Shown one piece after another: positions 2,135-57,764 of a DNA stretch of 64,000 bases (the first letter of the stretch is position 1; the number at the start of each line of letters is the position of its first letter). The notes beneath the pieces are model-generated. The model was not told the DNA's origin. It saw only the letters and a list, made by a program, of their open reading frames with translations, and did not search any database. The position numbers were made by a program, and so were the translations under genes. The stretch is from Edaphobacter sp. (GTDB taxonomy: Bacteria; Acidobacteriota; Terriglobia; Terriglobales; Acidobacteriaceae), in NCBI RefSeq assembly GCF_028283685.1, contig NZ_JAPWKF010000003.1:1-64000 (forward strand). Reading direction: 5' to 3'.

Positions 2135-3994
2135 ATGAACATGATGGCGGATGTTGAACCGGCAGTGACGTTTTATCCTGCGCGGCTTGCGGTTCTGGAT
2201 GCGGCGTACAAGCGTTACTTCTCGCGGACGGACGCTCTGCAGAAGGCGATGATCGCGGGCTTTGTGCTGGCGGGCGTGTTGCTGTACCTGTTGCTGCGCG
2301 GCGTGGTGACGGGAACGCCACTGCTGGTGGTGCTGGCGGCGACGGTGGCGGTGATTCCGCTGTACCTGCACATGATGCGTCTGCGCGATCGCACGCTGCG
2401 GCTGTTTGTGCACTATGAGCTGGCGGTGGGGCGCATCGACGGGACGAAGACGCAGTCGGGCAATACAGGCGAGGAGTTTCGCGTGGAGGGCCACCTGTAT
2501 GAGCGCGATCTGAATGTGCTGGGCGCGGACTCGTTGTTTGGCATGCTGGATACGGTGAGGACGGGCGTGGGGCAGCGGGGGCTGGCGAAGCTGCTGCTGT
2601 ATCGCGATGCGGGGAAGGCGCGCGGGGCGGGTGGTGCTCGTGATGCGGGCGACATTCGGGATGCGATTCTGGCGCGGCGGGCGGCGATCGAGGAGCTGAC
2701 GGGGAGGAACGATCTGCGCGAGCGGATTGCGATGCTTGGGCCGTCGCGATTTCAGCAGGTGCCGGCGGCGTTCTTCGACAAGTGGCTGGATGAGCCTGCG
2801 CCGGTGTTTCATCGGGCAGGCCGTGTGGGCATGGTGGCGACGACGACGGTGGTGGCGCTGCTGACGATCCTGGGGCTGGCGCATGTGCTGCCGTGGGATG
2901 TGGCGCGGCCGAATATTGTCTGCGCGCTGGCGATCCAGGCGACGATTGCGCTGACGCTGCGCAAGAGGGTGCTGCCGCTGCTGGAGTCGTCGAAGAGTAT
3001 CTCGGCGCAGATGCAGCTGTTTCGCGATGGACTGGAGCTGGTGCAGGGCGAGAACTTCACGTCGCAGCGTCTGCGCGAGCTGAAGCAGGTGATGGCGACG
3101 CCGGGCGATGCGGTGCGGCTGCTGAAGAAGATTCAGCAGCAGTTCGTGATCGTGGAGCAGAGGACGAAGGAGTGGTTCCTGATTCCTTCGCTGCTGCTGT
3201 GCGCGGGGACGCATGCGGCCATCTCGATTGCGATGTGGAAGCGGAGAAACGCGGCGGCGATGATGTTGTGGCTGACGGCGTGGGCGGAGTTCGAGGCGCT
3301 GAGCGCGCTGGCGACGTATGCGTATGAGCATCCGGAGAACACGTATCCGGAGATTCTCGACGAAGGCACGGCGGTCTTCGAGGCGACGACGCTGGCGCAT
3401 CCTCTATTGCCTGCGAACGCGGTGGCGAACGATGTGGCGTTGAACGCGGAGACGAGGGTGTATCTGATCAGCGGATCGAACATGGCGGGCAAGTCGACGC
3501 TGCTGCGGTCGGTGGGAGCGAATGCGGTGCTGGCTGCGACGGGCGCGCCGATTCGCGCGACACGGGCGAGGATGTCGCCGCTGGTGATTGGAGCGTCGAT
3601 TGCGCTGAGCGATTCGCTGGCGGAGGGCAGGAGCAAGTTTCTTGCAGAGGTGGAGCGTCTGCATGCGATCCTCGAGGCCGCTCGCAGCGCGGGCGAGGTG
3701 CGGGTGCTGTTTCTGATCGACGAGATCTTCAGCGGAACGAACTCGCTGGACCGTAAGGTTGCGGCGGAGGCGGTGACGCGGGCGCTGGTGGGTCACGGCG
3801 CGGTGGGCGCTCTGTCGACACATGACCTGACGCTGACGGAGATGGGAGAGTTTGCCGAGCTGCGTGCAGTGAACGTGCATATGGCGAGTGCGGACGCGAG
3901 CGATCCGCTGGCGTTTGATTACCGGCTGAAGCCAGGGGTAAATCAGAGCTCGAATGCGCTGGCGATTGTGCGGATGATGGGGATTGGGGTTTAG
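2135..3994 (+). CDS. Membrane-associated MutS-family ATPase
   Basis: 619-aa protein with the C-terminal MutS domain V ATPase: Walker A SGSNMAGKST near 446-455, Walker B LFLIDEIFSGTNS near 525-537, and the STHD switch near 570. It lacks the mismatch-recognition N-terminal domain. Instead it has hydrophobic, membrane-spanning stretches near residues 39-80, 232-275 and 348-398, interrupted by a coiled lever-like segment. Such MutS-related membrane proteins occur in Acidobacteria and Bacteroidetes and are of unknown function; classical mismatch repair is unlikely. Several ATGs cluster at the start (2135, 2141, 2144); the first is used here. The coding strand is G-rich at third positions, unlike plus-strand genes after 5 kb. 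Confidence 0.85.
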   Translation: MNMMADVEPAVTFYPARLAVLDAAYKRYFSRTDALQKAMIAGFVLAGVLLYLLLRGVVTGTPLLVVLAATVAVIPLYLHMMRLRDRTLRLFVHYELAVGRIDGTKTQSGNTGEEFRVEGHLYERDLNVLGADSLFGMLDTVRTGVGQRGLAKLLLYRDAGKARGAGGARDAGDIRDAILARRAAIEELTGRNDLRERIAMLGPSRFQQVPAAFFDKWLDEPAPVFHRAGRVGMVATTTVVALLTILGLAHVLPWDVARPNIVCALAIQATIALTLRKRVLPLLESSKSISAQMQLFRDGLELVQGENFTSQRLRELKQVMATPGDAVRLLKKIQQQFVIVEQRTKEWFLIPSLLLCAGTHAAISIAMWKRRNAAAMMLWLTAWAEFEALSALATYAYEHPENTYPEILDEGTAVFEATTLAHPLLPANAVANDVALNAETRVYLISGSNMAGKSTLLRSVGANAVLAATGAPIRATRARMSPLVIGASIALSDSLAEGRSKFLAEVERLHAILEAARSAGEVRVLFLIDEIFSGTNSLDRKVAAEAVTRALVGHGAVGALSTHDLTLTEMGEFAELRAVNVHMASADASDPLAFDYRLKPGVNQSSNALAIVRMMGIGV

Positions 3995-13000: not shown

Positions 13001-13066
13001 GCCGGGTGCCCCATTCATGGCGCAAAGCGACATGAGTGGGCTCATTCGCGCGAAAGCGCGAACCCC
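13001..13066 (+). repeat. Dispersed repeat R2 with hairpin tail
   Basis: Contains GGGTGCCCCATTCATGG and CATGAGTGGG. It is followed by the tail hairpin TTCGCGC-GAAA-GCGCGAA near 13044-13061. It lies between the amidotransferase start and the hemB terminator. Confidence 0.8.
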
Positions 13067-15224: not shown

Positions 15225-15302
15225 GCCATTTCAACGAAAGCCGCGCAGCGGAGAGACCGACTCCTCGGCGAGAACACTCACTGGGGCGATAGAAACCCGT
15301 TG
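15225..15302 (+). repeat. Dispersed repeat R1 (degenerate)
   Basis: Has the R1 flanks in diverged form (CATTTCAACGAAAG, then GCAGCGGAGAGACC) and the long optional arm CTCGGCGAGAACACTCACTG. It fills most of the divergent gap between the zinc-ribbon gene and mutS2. Confidence 0.6.
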
Positions 15303-15342
15303 CCCTCCACCGCCAACACCCCCGCAGGTTTAAACTGAACCC

Positions 15343-18225
15343 GTGCCCCCACAAGAACTCACCGCGCACATCCCCGCGCCGCTCGCCGAATCCTCCTCCA
15401 CCGCGCTCGAGTGGCCGCGCCTCCGCGAGGCCATCGCCGCCCGCACCTTCAGCCCCCTCGGCCGCGCCTGGACCCTCGCCCTCGAGCCCTCCGCCAACCT
15501 CCCCTGGATCGAGGCCCAGCACCAGCGCACCCACGAGATGCGCGCCCTCTACACCTCCGGCGGCAGCTTCGACTTCCACGGCCTCTTCGACCCCACCAGC
15601 CTCCTCGAAAAGGCACGCATCGAAGGCTCCGCCCTCGAAGCCCTCGAGATCCTCGCCCTCGTCACCGTCGTCGAACGCATCGCCGCCTGGCGCAAGCTGA
15701 TCACGACCCCCGGCGAAAACGCCTTCCTCAACACACCGTCACCCCAATCGCCTGTCATCTCGACCGAAGCGAAGCGCAGTGGAGAGACCCGCCTCTCTAC
15801 TGCGAATGTTCCCGCGCCACGCGAAGCAAGTTACACCCACTCCAACACCAACGGCATCGCCATCCTCTCCACCCCCATCCGCGACGCCTCCCTCGAACCC
15901 CTCCTCCGCAATCTCTCCGGCAAGATCGAGCCCGACGGCTCCCTCTCCGACGACGCCTCTCCCGAGCTCCGCCGCATCCGCCGCGCCATGGAGCAGCAGC
16001 ACCGCGCCATCGAGGAGAGCCTCCGCCGCTCGCTGAACCGCCTCGCCGCCGAAGGCGCCACGCAGGACGCCGTCATCACCATCCGCGGCGAGCGCTTCGT
16101 CATCCCCGTCCGCGCCGAGTTCAAGCGCCGCATCCCCGGCGTCGTCCACGGCTCCTCCTCCTCCGGTCAGACCGTCTTCGTCGAACCCCTCGAAACCATC
16201 GAGCAGAACAACGAACTCGTCCGCCTCCTCGACGAAGAGCAGTCCGAGATCCACCGCATCCTCGTCGCCATGACCCGAGCCCTCGCCGCCGACGCCCCCA
16301 CCATCCTCGCCGGCGCGCGCATCCTCGCCGAGATCGAGTCCCACGCCGCCCGCGCACGCTTCGCCAACGACCTCAACTGCTCCCGCCCACACTTCACCAC
16401 CGCAGCCTCTACGTTCCCACCTGCAGCCTCTGCGTCGTCATCCAAAACACCCTGGTTGTCATCCCGCAACACAGCGTCATCACCCGACGTTCCTTCGCTG
16501 TCATTCCAAGGTGCAGCATCATTTCAAGGCGCAGCCGAGGAATCCGCTTTTCCTTCTTACCCACCCAAAAATCCAGTCATCTCGACCGAAGGCGCGCAGC
16601 GCCGCAGTGGAGAGACCCGCTTCTCTACCTCCACCCTCTCCCAGCCAAGCGAAGCCCACAGCCAACAATCCCACCTCTCCCTCACCGCCGCCCGCCACCC
16701 GCTCCTCGAACTCCGCATGATCGCCGAAGCCCGCGCCGCAGGCACCGAGCCCAAGGCCCCCACACCCCTCACCGTCGCCCTCGCCGACGACGCGCGCCAG
16801 CTCATCATCAGCGGCCCCAACACCGGCGGCAAGACCGTCTCCCTCAAGACCATCGGCCTGCTGTCGTTGATGGCCCAGGCAGGCGTCCCCGTCCCCGCCG
16901 ACGAGGCCGTCCTCCCCCTCTTCACCGCCATCTACGCCGACATCGGCGACGCCCAGTCCATCGAGCGCAACCTCTCCAGCTTCTCCGCCCACGTCGTCAA
17001 CCTCGACCGCATCTCCCGCGAGGCCACCTCCTCCTCGCTCGTCCTGCTCGACGAGCTGGGCTCCGCCACCGATCCCGAAGAGGGCGCCGCCCTCGCCGTC
17101 GCCGTCTCCCAGCACTTCCTCGACGCACGCGTCTGGTCCTGCATCACCACCCACCTCACCTCGCTCAAGATCTACGCAGCCAACCGCCCCGGCGTGCTCA
17201 ACGCCGCCGTCGGCTTCGATCAGGAGACCCTCACTCCCACCTACCAGCTCCGTCTCGGCGTCCCCGGAGCCTCCGCCGGACTCAACATCGCCGCACGCCT
17301 CGGCCTCTCACCCGACATCATCGCCGCCGCCCGCGCGCAGCTGTCGACACAGACCGCCGACATCGCCGCCTTCCTCGACCGCCTCCATCAACAACTCGAA
17401 GCCGTCACCGAAGAGCGTGCCTCGCTACGCGAAAAAGAAGAGCAGCTACGCAAAGACAAGATCCTCCTCGACCTCGAAGGCCGCGCCGAGATCAAGCAGC
17501 GCACCCGCGATCTCGAAAAGAAGCTCGACTCCCTGCTCAACGACTTCGACTACCAGCTTCGCGAGTCCGTCAAAGCCATCGGCGACAAGGCCGTCGCAAA
17601 AAAGATCCAGCGCGACTCCGCCACCACCATGGCCCGCGCCCGCCGCGAGTTCGGCGAACAGTTCAAGTCCACCGTCGTCGCCCACATGACCGGCGCCGAC
17701 AAGAACGACCCCAACGCCCAGCCCCACATCGTCAAAGGAGCCGAGGTCGGCGATCTCGTCAAACTCAAATCCCTCGGCCGCCAGGCCCGCGTCGAACGCA
17801 TCCTCGACCGCACTCCCACCGGCGCAGCCAAAACGCTTGAAGTCTCCATGGGCGCGATGAAGATGAAGATCGCCGCCGAAGACATCGCCGACGTCGAAAA
17901 GGTCAAGGTCGTCACCCCGCTCGAAGCCGCACGCAAAAAGGGCGGCATCACCGTCTCCACCAACGAAGACCCCGACACCATCAGCTCCGAGATCAACGTC
18001 ATCGGCCGCACCGCCGACGAGGCCCACGAGCAGGTCGCCCGCTTCCTCGACCGCGCCTTCCTCGCCGGACTACCCCGCATCCGCATCGTCCACGGAACCG
18101 GCATGGGCATCCTGCGCCGCACCCTGCGCGACTACCTCCGCTCCCACCCGCACGTAGCCAACATCACCGAACCCCCGCCAAACCTCGGCGGCCAGGGAGC
18201 CACCGAAGTCGAACTGCGGCAGTGA
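15343..18225 (+). CDS. mutS2: Endonuclease MutS2, enlarged by two in-frame repeat insertions
   Basis: 960 aa, compared with about 780-800 aa for usual MutS2. N-terminal core and clamp regions come first, then the ATPase with Walker A SGPNTGGKT (about 490-498) and Walker B LVLLDELGSATDPEEG (about 566), a coiled coil (about 680-760), KOW-like part, and C-terminal Smr nuclease domain with HGTGMG (about 916). The extra length is at residues 137-153 (VISTEAKRSGETRLST) and about 351-443, which includes VISTEGAQRRSGETRFST. Both are translations of the dispersed repeats. All catalytic motifs are intact and the frame is open. Family roles include suppression of recombination and ribosome-collision rescue. 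GTG start at 15343, without clear Shine-Dalgarno. Confidence 0.93.
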   Translation: MPPQELTAHIPAPLAESSSTALEWPRLREAIAARTFSPLGRAWTLALEPSANLPWIEAQHQRTHEMRALYTSGGSFDFHGLFDPTSLLEKARIEGSALEALEILALVTVVERIAAWRKLITTPGENAFLNTPSPQSPVISTEAKRSGETRLSTANVPAPREASYTHSNTNGIAILSTPIRDASLEPLLRNLSGKIEPDGSLSDDASPELRRIRRAMEQQHRAIEESLRRSLNRLAAEGATQDAVITIRGERFVIPVRAEFKRRIPGVVHGSSSSGQTVFVEPLETIEQNNELVRLLDEEQSEIHRILVAMTRALAADAPTILAGARILAEIESHAARARFANDLNCSRPHFTTAASTFPPAASASSSKTPWLSSRNTASSPDVPSLSFQGAASFQGAAEESAFPSYPPKNPVISTEGAQRRSGETRFSTSTLSQPSEAHSQQSHLSLTAARHPLLELRMIAEARAAGTEPKAPTPLTVALADDARQLIISGPNTGGKTVSLKTIGLLSLMAQAGVPVPADEAVLPLFTAIYADIGDAQSIERNLSSFSAHVVNLDRISREATSSSLVLLDELGSATDPEEGAALAVAVSQHFLDARVWSCITTHLTSLKIYAANRPGVLNAAVGFDQETLTPTYQLRLGVPGASAGLNIAARLGLSPDIIAAARAQLSTQTADIAAFLDRLHQQLEAVTEERASLREKEEQLRKDKILLDLEGRAEIKQRTRDLEKKLDSLLNDFDYQLRESVKAIGDKAVAKKIQRDSATTMARARREFGEQFKSTVVAHMTGADKNDPNAQPHIVKGAEVGDLVKLKSLGRQARVERILDRTPTGAAKTLEVSMGAMKMKIAAEDIADVEKVKVVTPLEAARKKGGITVSTNEDPDTISSEINVIGRTADEAHEQVARFLDRAFLAGLPRIRIVHGTGMGILRRTLRDYLRSHPHVANITEPPPNLGGQGATEVELRQ
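15752..15800 (+). repeat. R1 repeat inside the mutS2 reading frame
   Basis: Complete R1: GTCATCTCGACCGAAGC ... GCAGTGGAGAGACCCGC, matching the intergenic copies nearly base for base. It is read in the frame giving VISTEAKRSGETRLST. It sits in what should be a linker of the MutS2 N-terminal region. Confidence 0.9.
16500..16630 (+). repeat. R3 and R1 repeats inside the mutS2 reading frame
   Basis: An R3 unit (TGTCATTCCAAG ... GAGGAATCCGCTTTTCC, 16500-16553) is followed by R1 (16575-16630) with the hairpin GGCGC-GCA-GCGCC at 16591-16603. Upstream, 16448-16500 holds further GTCATC-headed fragments, so the segment appears built from several successive repeat pieces. Together they lengthen the protein by about 90 residues just before its ATPase domain. 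Confidence 0.85.
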
Positions 18226-18240
18226 TCCACCCCCAAAAAC

Positions 18241-18392
18241 TGTCATCTCGACCGAAGCGAAGCGCAGCGGAGAGACCCGCTTCTCGACCGAAGCCCTCTC
18301 CCAGCCGCGCGAAGCCACGTGCCACAAACCGGGTGCCCCATTCATGACGCGACAGCGGCATGAGTGGGTCCATTCGCGCGAAGCGCGAACCA
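18241..18392 (+). repeat. R1 followed by R2 with hairpin tail
   Basis: R1 at 18241-18290 directly after the mutS2 stop. R2 at 18329-18370 (GGGTGCCCCATTCATGA ... CATGAGTGGG) with the tail TTCGCGC-GAA-GCGCGAA at 18373-18389. The block lies between convergent mutS2 and the acyltransferase gene. Confidence 0.88.
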
Positions 18393-18403
18393 CCCAGCCA
18401 CAC

Positions 18404-19655: not shown

Positions 19656-19709
19656 TTCATTTCGACCGAAGCGGCAAAGCCGCGCAGTGGAGAAACCCGC
19701 TTCTCGACC
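19656..19709 (+). repeat. Dispersed repeat R1
   Basis: CATTTCGACCGAAG flank, hairpin GCGGC-AAA-GCCGC (19671-19683) and CAGTGGAGAAACCCGCTTCTC end. It lies between divergent acyltransferase and GH32 genes. Confidence 0.88.
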
Positions 19710-19785
19710 TAAGGCGTCATCAAGCCAAGCACCACACTCCGCCACATTTGATACCCACCACCCCAATGCGCGATCATGGCCCACC

Positions 19786-21393: not shown

Positions 21394-21490
21394 CAGGAAG
21401 CGGAATCTGCTTTCCTTCAGCCCCAAATCGCGTCATCTCGACCGAAGCATCGCTCGCGATGCGCAGTGGAGAGACCCGCTTCTCCACCGC
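21394..21490 (+). repeat. R3 fragment and R1
   Basis: R3 remnant GGAAGCGGAATCTGCTTTCC at about 21398-21417, then R1 at 21432-21487 with the seven-pair hairpin GCATCGC-TC-GCGATGC (21447-21462). Confidence 0.85.
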
Positions 21491-21590
21491 AGACCATCCC
21501 CGCCACAACCAAACCTCATGCCGCAGGCATGAGCCTTCGCGCAAAACCGCGAACTCGCTTAAGGGCGCGGCTTCGTCCACTCGCTCAACC

Positions 21591-24576: not shown

Positions 24577-24717
24577 GGGTGCCCCATTCATGGCGCGAAG
24601 CGACATGAGTAGACCAGCGACAAACTCTCAGGAAATCGTAGTCATCTCGACCGAAGCGAACCGGTCCCCGGCGAGTTTGCTCGCTGGGTCAGGAAGCGCT
24701 GTGGAGAGACCCGCTCT
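24577..24717 (+). repeat. R2 followed by long-arm R1
   Basis: R2 at 24577-24613. R1 at 24640-24717 with the extended arm CCCCGGCGAGTTTGCTCGCT before the closing GTGGAGAGACCCGCT. The same extended arm occurs at 28745 and 56391. Confidence 0.82.
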
Positions 24718-24771
24718 GAACCACCAAAGCCCCCCACACACACCATGTACCCTGATGGAAGGAGCCGCACC

Positions 24772-36552: not shown

Positions 36553-36690
36553 GTCATCTCGACCGAAGCCGGGTGCCCCATTCATGGCGCGAAGCGACAT
36601 GAGTGGGCCAGCCACATCCTCTTCAAGAATCCTCTTCAAGAAAAGCAGTCATCTCGACCGAAGCGCAGCGGAGAGACCTGCCGTTCAACC
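36553..36690 (+). repeat. R1 interrupted by R2, then a second R1
   Basis: At 36553 the first 17 bases of R1 (GTCATCTCGACCGAAGC) run straight into R2 (CGGGTGCCCCATTCATGG, to 36609). A full R1 follows at 36648-36690. The first is a nested or junction-type composite. Confidence 0.85.
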
Positions 36691-37921: not shown

Positions 37922-38027
37922 CTGTCATCTCGACCGAAGCGGCGTAGCCGCGCAGTGGAGAGACCTGCTTCTCAACCACCAAACTCCACCCAGCCGGGGC
38001 CCCATATCTGGTCACGCCAGATGTGGG
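37922..38027 (+). repeat. R1 and a hairpin related to R2
   Basis: R1 at 37922-37980 with GCGGC-GTA-GCCGC (37939-37951). At 38000-38027, CCCATATCTGG and CCAGATGTGGG form an 11-pair hairpin with one G-T pair in an R2-like CCCCAT...GTGGG frame. Confidence 0.8.
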
Positions 38028-44829: not shown

Positions 44830-45003
44830 GTCATCTCGGCCGGGTGCCCCATTCATGGCGCAAAGCGACATGAGTGGGCCAGCCACAACCGCCGGGCGCT
44901 CTACGTCTCACCTCTAAGACGTGGCTTCACCACCACCACCGCCCACTCAAAACTGTCATTTCGACCGAAGCGCAGCGCAGTGGAGAAACCCGCTGTTCGA
45001 CCC
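44830..45003 (+). repeat. R1 head fused to R2, R5 hairpin, then R1
   Basis: GTCATCTCGGC (R1 head) joins R2 directly (CGGGTGCCCCATTCATGG, to 44880). R5 hairpin ACGTCT-CACCTCTA-AGACGT at 44903-44922. Complete R1 at 44954-45003. The whole gap between the convergent permease and esterase genes is made of repeats. Confidence 0.85.
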
Positions 45004-45013
45004 CGCTGCTACC

Positions 45014-55146: not shown

Positions 55147-55269
55147 TGTCATTTCGACCGGAGCGGCAAAGCCGCGCAGTGGAGAAACCCGCTGTTCGAC
55201 CACCACCCGCAAACCCACCCGCAACCGCGCCACAAATACGAGCGCCCACGTCTCGATTCTGAGACGTGG
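55147..55269 (+). repeat. R1 and R5 hairpin
   Basis: R1 at 55147-55200 with GCGGC-AAA-GCCGC. R5 at 55246-55269: CCACGTCTC-GATTCT-GAGACGTGG, nine perfect pairs. It lies between convergent acyltransferase and ccmD genes and may act as a terminator. Confidence 0.85.
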
Positions 55270-57488: not shown

Positions 57489-57764
57489 TGTCATCTCGAC
57501 CGAAGCGAAGCGCAGTGGAGAGACCCGCTTCTCAACCACCAAATTCCAAGCCTTGCATGTCATTCCGCAGCGGGACGGCGTCTCCAGCCAGCTTGCGGCC
57601 GTGGCAAGCAGCGAAGCAATCTGCTCTCCTCGCCCAGCCATCAAGACAGAAGCCCACGTCAAGCTCTGGGCGCGGCATCCTCATTCAAACCACGGCACAA
57701 CCGCGGGTGCCCCATACATGCAGTTTCATCGCATGTGTGGGCATTCGAGCGCAGCTCGAACCGC
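57489..57764 (+). repeat. R1, R3-like and R2 with hairpin tail
   Basis: R1 57489-57537 (almost consensus). R3-like 57558-57629 (TGTCATTCCGCAGCGG ... GAAGCAATCTGCTCTCC). R2 57703-57764, a diverged core (CCCCATACATG ... CATGTGTGGG) with the tail TTCGAGC-GCA-GCTCGAA. They occupy most of the gene-free stretch 57297-57854. Confidence 0.82.

Follow-up and report, generated by a model that had tools for sequence, protein, structure and literature searches.

The mutS2 gene and its repeat-bearing linkers

The window analysed here is a stretch of 64,000 nucleotides from an Edaphobacter sp. genome (hereafter the own genome, G000), namely positions 1 to 64,000 of contig NZ_JAPWKF010000003.1, and it contains a mutS2 gene whose reading frame includes copies of two dispersed repeats, called R1 and R3. 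By its nearest named loci, the host is an acidobacterium of the Granulicella/Edaphobacter group. Gene models were obtained with a self-written dicodon caller and no annotation was used. The mutS2 gene (15343 to 18222, plus strand, GTG start) encodes a protein of 960 residues that passed the TIGR01069 (mutS2) equivalog test with 689 bits against a curated cut-off of 400, and the assembly contains no other full-length MutS2 match. A first-pass annotation of this DNA had proposed that two dispersed repeats lie in the mutS2 frame without creating a stop, that R3 precedes the second R1 and that the MutS2 motifs are intact, and all three points were borne out: the frame is open and its product contains the Pfam domains MutS_V, MSSS and Smr.

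The first R1 copy (15754 to 15812, plus strand, 69.7 bits with the covariance model, read as VISTEAKRSGETRLST) lies inside linker 1 (residues 132-168; 15736 to 15846, plus strand), and the second (16576 to 16640, plus strand, 83.6 bits, read as VISTEGAQRRSGETRFST) lies inside linker 2 (residues 355-440; 16405 to 16662, plus strand); these two scores are not independent evidence, because both copies were among the 26 used to build the model. Linker 2 also contains, in frame and 5' of its R1 copy, an R3-type repeat (GTCATTCC...GAGGAATCCGCTTTTC; 16500 to 16552, plus strand) that was recognised by its BLAST match to other stretches of the own genome and that includes an internal 18-nucleotide tandem duplication (read by eye). 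When both linkers were compared by BLAST with the own-genome stretches, self matches excluded, the R1 core was covered about 70-80 fold. No more than one match to the 5' part of linker 2 (16384-16499) turned up in the rest of the own DNA sampled, so that the additional repeat pieces previously described as stacked at 16448-16500 were not recovered.

The protein is indeed long, as the first-pass annotation had stated, but its usual length of 780-800 residues does not hold for this group: MutS2 has 807-917 residues in 78 loci of relatives and 785 residues in B. subtilis. The segment around linker 1 measures 67 residues against 49 or fewer in the other rows of the alignment, and that around linker 2 measures 108 residues against 18-22 in many relatives. 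Aligned with B. subtilis MutS2 (7qv3), the query forms three matching blocks (residues 20-123, 184-351 and 476-959), and both repeat-bearing segments therefore fall between aligned blocks. In an AlphaFold2 model computed with 53 relatives, the predicted local distance difference test (pLDDT) score was below 50 at residues 132-168 and 355-440, as well as in three further short stretches, and reached 94-98 and 92-95 in the ten-residue blocks flanking the linkers, with short ramps between. Because these low scores lie between well-predicted blocks, the repeat-encoded peptides are best read as predicted disordered linkers. The R1 and R3 repeats are most likely read as extra protein segments, the preserved frame being the reason to suppose that they are translated. 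A second MutS-like ATPase gene (2135-3991, an open reading frame of 619 residues) is present in the window, and its C-terminal part is 31% identical to the MutS2 ATPase.

R1 is a dispersed palindrome with covarying arms

R1 spans about 50-60 nucleotides, beyond which information drops; it starts with TGTC, and its YYC/GRR stem comprises 4+3 pairs, is interrupted by internal loops and encloses an inner hairpin of variable form, T5 being paired with A43 and A4 standing opposite a C. Among the 26 aligned own copies, 20 double-change cells keep pairing, a result found in 0 of 500 shuffles, and versions of the alignment slid out of register scored far lower. The two variable stem bases of a pattern-based set of 90 copies were CT/AG in 28, CC/GG in 26, TT/AA in 17, TC/GA in 14 and others in 5, which gives matching YY/RR arms in 85 of 90 copies against 24 expected. 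The inner hairpin differs in both length and sequence, with compensatory changes. This covariation of the arms fits a structured DNA or RNA, in agreement with the structured nature previously suggested for the repeats. The T at position -1 before GTC carries 1.22 bits over 77 copies, and only this T of the tag counts as independent since GTC belonged to the search pattern.

The covariance model found R1 in 27 of the 31 searched genomes of the genus, the own genome included, where at least 103 matches were obtained (150 candidates scored). For the location of copies relative to genes we used 33 own-genome stretches (698 kb in total), 26 of them picked for their R1 hits and 7 not; among the latter the model finds R1 in one and the short pattern occurs in a second. 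At a cut-off of E<=1e-6, which dropped 12 of 102 matches, 90 copies were retained: 79 intergenic, 10 within predicted genes and 1 at a gene edge (here and below, such counts take in retained matches only). Own copies are strongly clustered (C8:211-241 kb, C4:199-206 kb and C1:388-397 kb), and contig C4, taken whole, has long stretches with few or zero copies. The single exact pattern tried on viral contigs gave no R1.

R1 within other genes

The ten in-gene copies are distributed among mutS2 (2), metG (2), recQ (1) and genes for a cytochrome P450 (1), an MFS transporter (1) and a GDSL lipase (1), the remaining two being in an open reading frame without family match. Thus eight of the ten lie in frame in genes recognised by Pfam or NCBIfam, six in number. 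The unmatched reading frame (L174:7829-8932, minus strand) may be spurious; it carries three R1 copies about 79 nucleotides apart near its C-terminus, one of which is the copy counted as gene edge. Read in protein, the ten copies use six SSRP-type, four VISTE-type and no HLDRS-type frames, which are small numbers. All ten are in sense orientation, and so are 28 of 38 intergenic copies between same-strand genes; we draw no sense rule for in-gene copies, because the intergenic ones are mostly sense too and the inserts in MutS2 of relatives are mixed.

The metG product scored 703 bits with NF008900 (cut-off 598), its two R1 copies being low-scoring (41.7 and 32.8 bits), and the own assembly has no second full copy, the other match being weak (27% over residues 4-124). 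Its inserts occupy residues 195-243 and 375-410, where a solved MetG structure (9shc) has almost nothing; the second directly follows the KMSKS motif. No internal stop interrupts the strong matches to MutS2, MetG and RecQ, in line with the earlier proposal that such repeats may evolve into protein segments. In a relative, G010, repeat-type inserts occupy the RecQ site and the two MetG sites, as in the own genome, and other relatives have different repeat-like peptides at the same MetG and RecQ linkers (by eye). The RecQ of G010 (L238) has R1 followed by D3, a second palindrome described below, and lacks the stretch bearing the first HRDC domain of the own RecQ. This stretch is missing at the R1 and D3 junction, an observation that suggests domain loss at repeats.

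Recurrent repeat inserts in the MutS2 of relatives

A scan of named organisms kept 80 of 409 relatives. The repeat search covered 91 loci of relatives (811 kb, 84% coding), including the same species under two labels (e.g. L015 and L094). Linker lengths differ widely among the MutS2 proteins of these relatives. In the relative G019 (locus L003; 89% identity over residues 166-356) both linkers are short, with GGEGSTAASSAG in place of the insert of linker 1 and VFAASAAPR at linker 2. Comparison with relatives, as proposed in the first-pass annotation, gave neither of the outcomes that it had named as refuting: those without R1 differ in sequence at these positions, and the extra segments are not common to all MutS2 proteins. 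In the sister pair G001/G023 (support 78), a 90-column insert holding an antisense R1 is present in G001 and absent from G023.

The second palindrome, D3 (GGGTGCCCCAT...GTGGG), shows covariation as strong as that of R1 (33 cells) and was searched for in the same 91 loci. The R1 model gave 8 matches at E<1e-4 (L105, with E 0.003, and ten matches with E above 0.05 were dropped) and the D3 model 21 at E<1e-3 (eight with E above 0.001 dropped). Ten of these matches lie within genes, all in MutS2, and the other 19 are intergenic; R1 inserts were found in the MutS2 of L002, L004, L061 (Granulicella aggregans M8UP14, a cultivated relative), L064 and L124, and D3 inserts in that of L061, L065, L102, L103 and L108. 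As MutS2 makes up 226 of the 682 kb of coding DNA (33%), the probability of ten out of ten by chance is 1.6e-5 if all are independent, and about 4e-4 with seven independent events in relatives.

A FastTree phylogeny of MutS2 gave a minimum of four changes for R1, one of them being the own gene, and four for D3. Beyond the own gene, the tree would thus imply a minimum of seven events in relatives by which R1 or D3 was gained or lost, a count that does not distinguish gain from loss and that includes some weak nodes. It was built from 92 of 105 rows, four short ones having been left out beforehand and 13 dropped because their last 500 residues were identical to another row (L108 among them, its twin L021 being kept). 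Linker 2 is probably a recurrent insertion site across Acidobacteriaceae. Two assemblies from the genus, G010 and G017 (99% and 96% complete), gave no strong MutS2 match and weaker ones at the ATPase region only.

R1 orientation tends to follow the local strand composition

Adjacent own R1 copies 0.3-20 kb apart share their orientation in 54 cases and oppose each other in 5 (genes at matched distances agree in 53%; chance probability 2.5e-10), and in eight further pairs, spaced by less than 0.3 kb and outside this count, the orientation is the same throughout. In most own stretches the strand bearing R1 is C-rich at the third positions of plus and minus genes alike, the skew being mixed or weak in L179, L185, L189 and L195. 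For contig C4, which is complete (454 kb), a hand count from the table shows that 24 of 25 copies match the skew of the 10-kb bin in which they lie, and the sole exception falls in a bin that spans a skew flip. In a second species, G014, R1 direction agrees with the skew in 20 of 20 regions chosen around some of its 76 matches, and its contig C2 shows the only clear orientation run among three other genomes compared (27 of 36 adjacent pairs against 18.0 expected). Contig C4 of the own genome and contigs C1 and C2 of G014 (L274-L293) look like a patchwork of domains with strand asymmetry, in which the GC skew at third positions reaches about 0.6 and several sign changes occur along each contig.

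The same rule was followed by nine of the nine relatives' loci with R1 or D3 inserts in MutS2, and therefore inserts are sense if the gene runs along the C-rich strand and antisense if it runs against it. In this test a constant correction was applied wherever all genes of a locus lay on the same strand; the skew is near zero in L124 (0.07) and in L064 (0.15 corrected, 0 uncorrected), the sign of the latter resting on the correction. The skew of MutS2-insert loci has a median of 0.35 against 0.09 in the others (p 0.0009), and loci with any repeat differed from those with none at p 0.06 only.

Other repeats in the window and transposase genes

The window holds 15 R1 copies with E<=1e-6, of which only that at 1993 to 2058 is on the minus strand. 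Intergenic copies were found on the plus strand just 3' of mutS2 (18242 to 18300, 72.7 bits) and at 19656 to 19720, 21432 to 21499, 37924 to 37988 (top score, 84.3 bits), 44955 to 45013, 55148 to 55212 and 57490 to 57548, all with the covariance model. At 24641-24733 and 1993-2058 a third palindrome-like sequence (GGTCCCC..GCGAG..) lies within or beside R1, so that the repeats nest. A D3 repeat follows mutS2 on its 3' side (18330 to 18377, plus strand, 57 bits with model R2), and the top-scoring D3 copy of the window is at 13003 to 13049 (plus strand, 63.1 bits). At 36553-36616, the first 16-18 nucleotides of R1 abut a complete D3, as if D3 had inserted into R1 or recombined with it.

In a raw count, D3 occurs within the fetched locus of 14 of 32 Y1_Tnp genes, both own ones included. 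These two own genes carry D3-type repeats, and R1 was therefore rejected as the candidate repeat associated with them. One Y1_Tnp locus of another genome (L145 of G049), alone among the 32, has three GTCAT(T/C)CTGAGCGAAG repeats, which are related both to R1 and to the insert in MetG loop 1.

Interpretation and alternative explanations

We propose that R1 is a REP-like (repetitive extragenic palindromic) mobile palindrome whose in-frame insertions into linkers survive, those in linkers 1 and 2 of mutS2 among them, and whose insertion is probably strand-specific; we would give this reading a probability of roughly three in four. The first-pass annotation had already regarded the repeats as mobile and as tolerated in linkers. 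The former is supported by the dispersed copies, the short linkers of relatives and the insert that separates G001 from G023, and the latter is consistent with the structure prediction, in which both repeat-bearing segments score below 50 between well-predicted domains. R1 would be a non-autonomous element inserting mainly between genes, and a copy landing within a gene would survive if the frame is kept and the landing site is a flexible linker; the inserted DNA, to judge from its frame, would then be translated into a probably disordered peptide. Within each compositional domain the copies would be oriented with the C-rich strand whatever the direction of the gene, and R1 insertion is probably strand-specific. 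This preference might arise from the single-stranded DNA exposed at the replication fork. A Y1 (HUH) transposase may act on the R1 hairpin; it would perhaps work in trans, as the search for a transposase gene flanked by R1 (32 Y1_Tnp loci) gave none. Chance or low complexity as the origin of R1 was rejected in view of the covariation, the short linkers of relatives and the genome-wide copies.

A wider version, which we hold as tentative and rather less probable than even, is that R1, and D3 less strictly, enters one strand of the replicating chromosome, so that copies would record the replication direction of the locus at landing; chromosomes would then be a patchwork of flipped strand-asymmetric blocks, the mutS2 inserts being sense or antisense according to their block.

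Several observations weigh against these proposals. A target-site duplication was not resolved against L003 or between G001 and G023, the edges of the inserts being dependent on the alignment, and inserts without homologous sequences tend to have low pLDDT anyway. R1 surrounds none of the 32 Y1_Tnp loci, scattered partial pattern matches only being seen there (Y1_Tnp was the transposase class covered). On contig C4 the number of R1 copies per 10-kb bin is not significantly correlated with skew (rho 0.22, p 0.13), and D3 agrees with the skew in only 4 of 6 cases; outside MutS2, D3 copies of either direction occur in L089 and L139, and L137 opposes the skew. Orientation runs are weak on contig C1 of G014 (25 of 38 adjacent pairs against 21.8 expected), on contig C1 of G041 (18 of 27 against 14.6) and in G023 (11 of 15 against 9.4). 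Finally, the sign changes of the skew exceed what one origin and one terminus allow, and therefore inversions or another process must be involved.

This last point leads to the alternative that best survives, although we regard it as unlikely: chromosomal inversions would have moved repeats and composition jointly, producing the match between polarity and skew without any strand preference at insertion. Each contig shows many flips between domains, often with the full amplitude, as inversions would give; however, the coherence within a block (54 against 5) would still need a prior strand preference or a one-sided survival of copies.

It is improbable, in our view, that the insertions were selected because their peptides or hairpins alter the function of MutS2, MetG or RecQ, for instance through a mutator effect. 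Such selection would account for the recurrence of repair and translation genes, as in Di Nocera 2013 (PMC3733652), for the restriction of in-gene matches to MutS2 in the 91 loci at the thresholds used, and for the MetG inserts common to the own genome and G010. It fits poorly with the variation of sites, frames, repeat families and orientation between species, with the very low predicted confidence of the inserted segments, as expected of disordered ones, and with the hits in P450, MFS and lipase genes, and the concentration in MutS2 may also reflect neighbouring genes with fewer linkers.

Far less probable is the growth of the linkers by slippage and drift, their likeness to intergenic repeats being low-complexity convergence. 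The 18-nucleotide tandem duplication in linker 2, the scarcity of matches to 16384-16499 and the widely varying linker lengths of relatives would be expected of such growth, but the mutS2 copies keep the family consensus and the covarying arms, their cores match dozens of other copies, and G001 and G023 differ by one single insert that holds R1. Removal of the repeats from the mRNA or the protein, in an intron- or intein-like manner that would leave mature MutS2 without them, is scarcely credible, and its RNA-level form, an option named in the first-pass annotation, found no support: R1 is structured, which speaks in its favour, but the frame is open across the inserts, Rfam gave no match at E<=1 within 15300-18400, and the R1 insert is, to our knowledge, below the size of any known self-splicing intron or intein.

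If R1 behaves as the mobile, strand-specific palindrome proposed here, soil bacteria have repeatedly incorporated mobile palindromes into their housekeeping and repair proteins, different species having done so at the same linkers, and the sense and antisense inserts of one gene form a natural data set on how strand, replication and protein tolerance shape the survival of repeats. Should the strand rule prove general, short repeats would offer a record of how a locus has been replicated over time, and one could ask in concrete terms where the mosaic strand asymmetry comes from.

Comparison with known repeat systems

The following comparisons rest on published descriptions. The Rickettsia palindromic elements (RPEs; Ogata 2000, 2002) are palindromic repeats of about 150 bp found in frame in unrelated protein genes (PMC10969869). 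R1 resembles them by its in-frame insertion into unrelated genes (eight copies in six recognised genes) and differs by its size (about 50-60 nucleotides), by its acidobacterial host and by the genes concerned, which include MutS2, RecQ and MetG; strand locking is not mentioned for RPEs in the portion of PMC10969869 considered.

Di Nocera 2013 (PMC3733652) described REPs inside genes, many of them for replication or repair, with flexible linkers suggested as their location, as well as tyrosine transposases with inverted repeats in Acidobacteria. With the CGTC-tagged REPs of that study R1 shares a TGTC/CGTC-like tag, a short palindrome, a mostly intergenic location, the lack of a dedicated transposase and the presence of some copies in DNA repair and tRNA synthetase genes. 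It does not conform to their stem of 8-9 bp, which starts with a complementary AT, with a loop of 4-5 nucleotides, its own stem being in two parts; they form mainly inverted (HH) dimers, whereas neighbouring own R1 copies mostly have the same orientation, and the conserved 3' module of R1 (YGCTTYTCNACC) sets it further apart. The words 'muts', 'recq' and 'methionyl' are absent from the main text of Di Nocera 2013, the additional files being outside this check.

D3 resembles the RAYT/TIRYT-associated repeats of Acidobacteria (Di Nocera 2013; Quentin 2018, PMC6006769) by its occurrence around Y1_Tnp genes, unlike R1, which flanks none of the 32. According to Quentin 2018, Y1 transposases act on single-stranded DNA of the lagging-strand template, and in-frame REPs occur in tnpA_REP genes of subclass 2.4, where the frame stays intact as with R1, the host gene being the transposase itself. 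Judged by titles and the start of abstracts, none of the papers listed in searches on MutS2, MetG, Granulicella, Terriglobus or Acidobacteria with palindromic repeats or strand asymmetry reports these hosts or the strand rule. In-frame palindromic repeats as such are known from Rickettsia and from REP-rich genomes; what appears to be new is their presence in these hosts and the strand rule that they follow.

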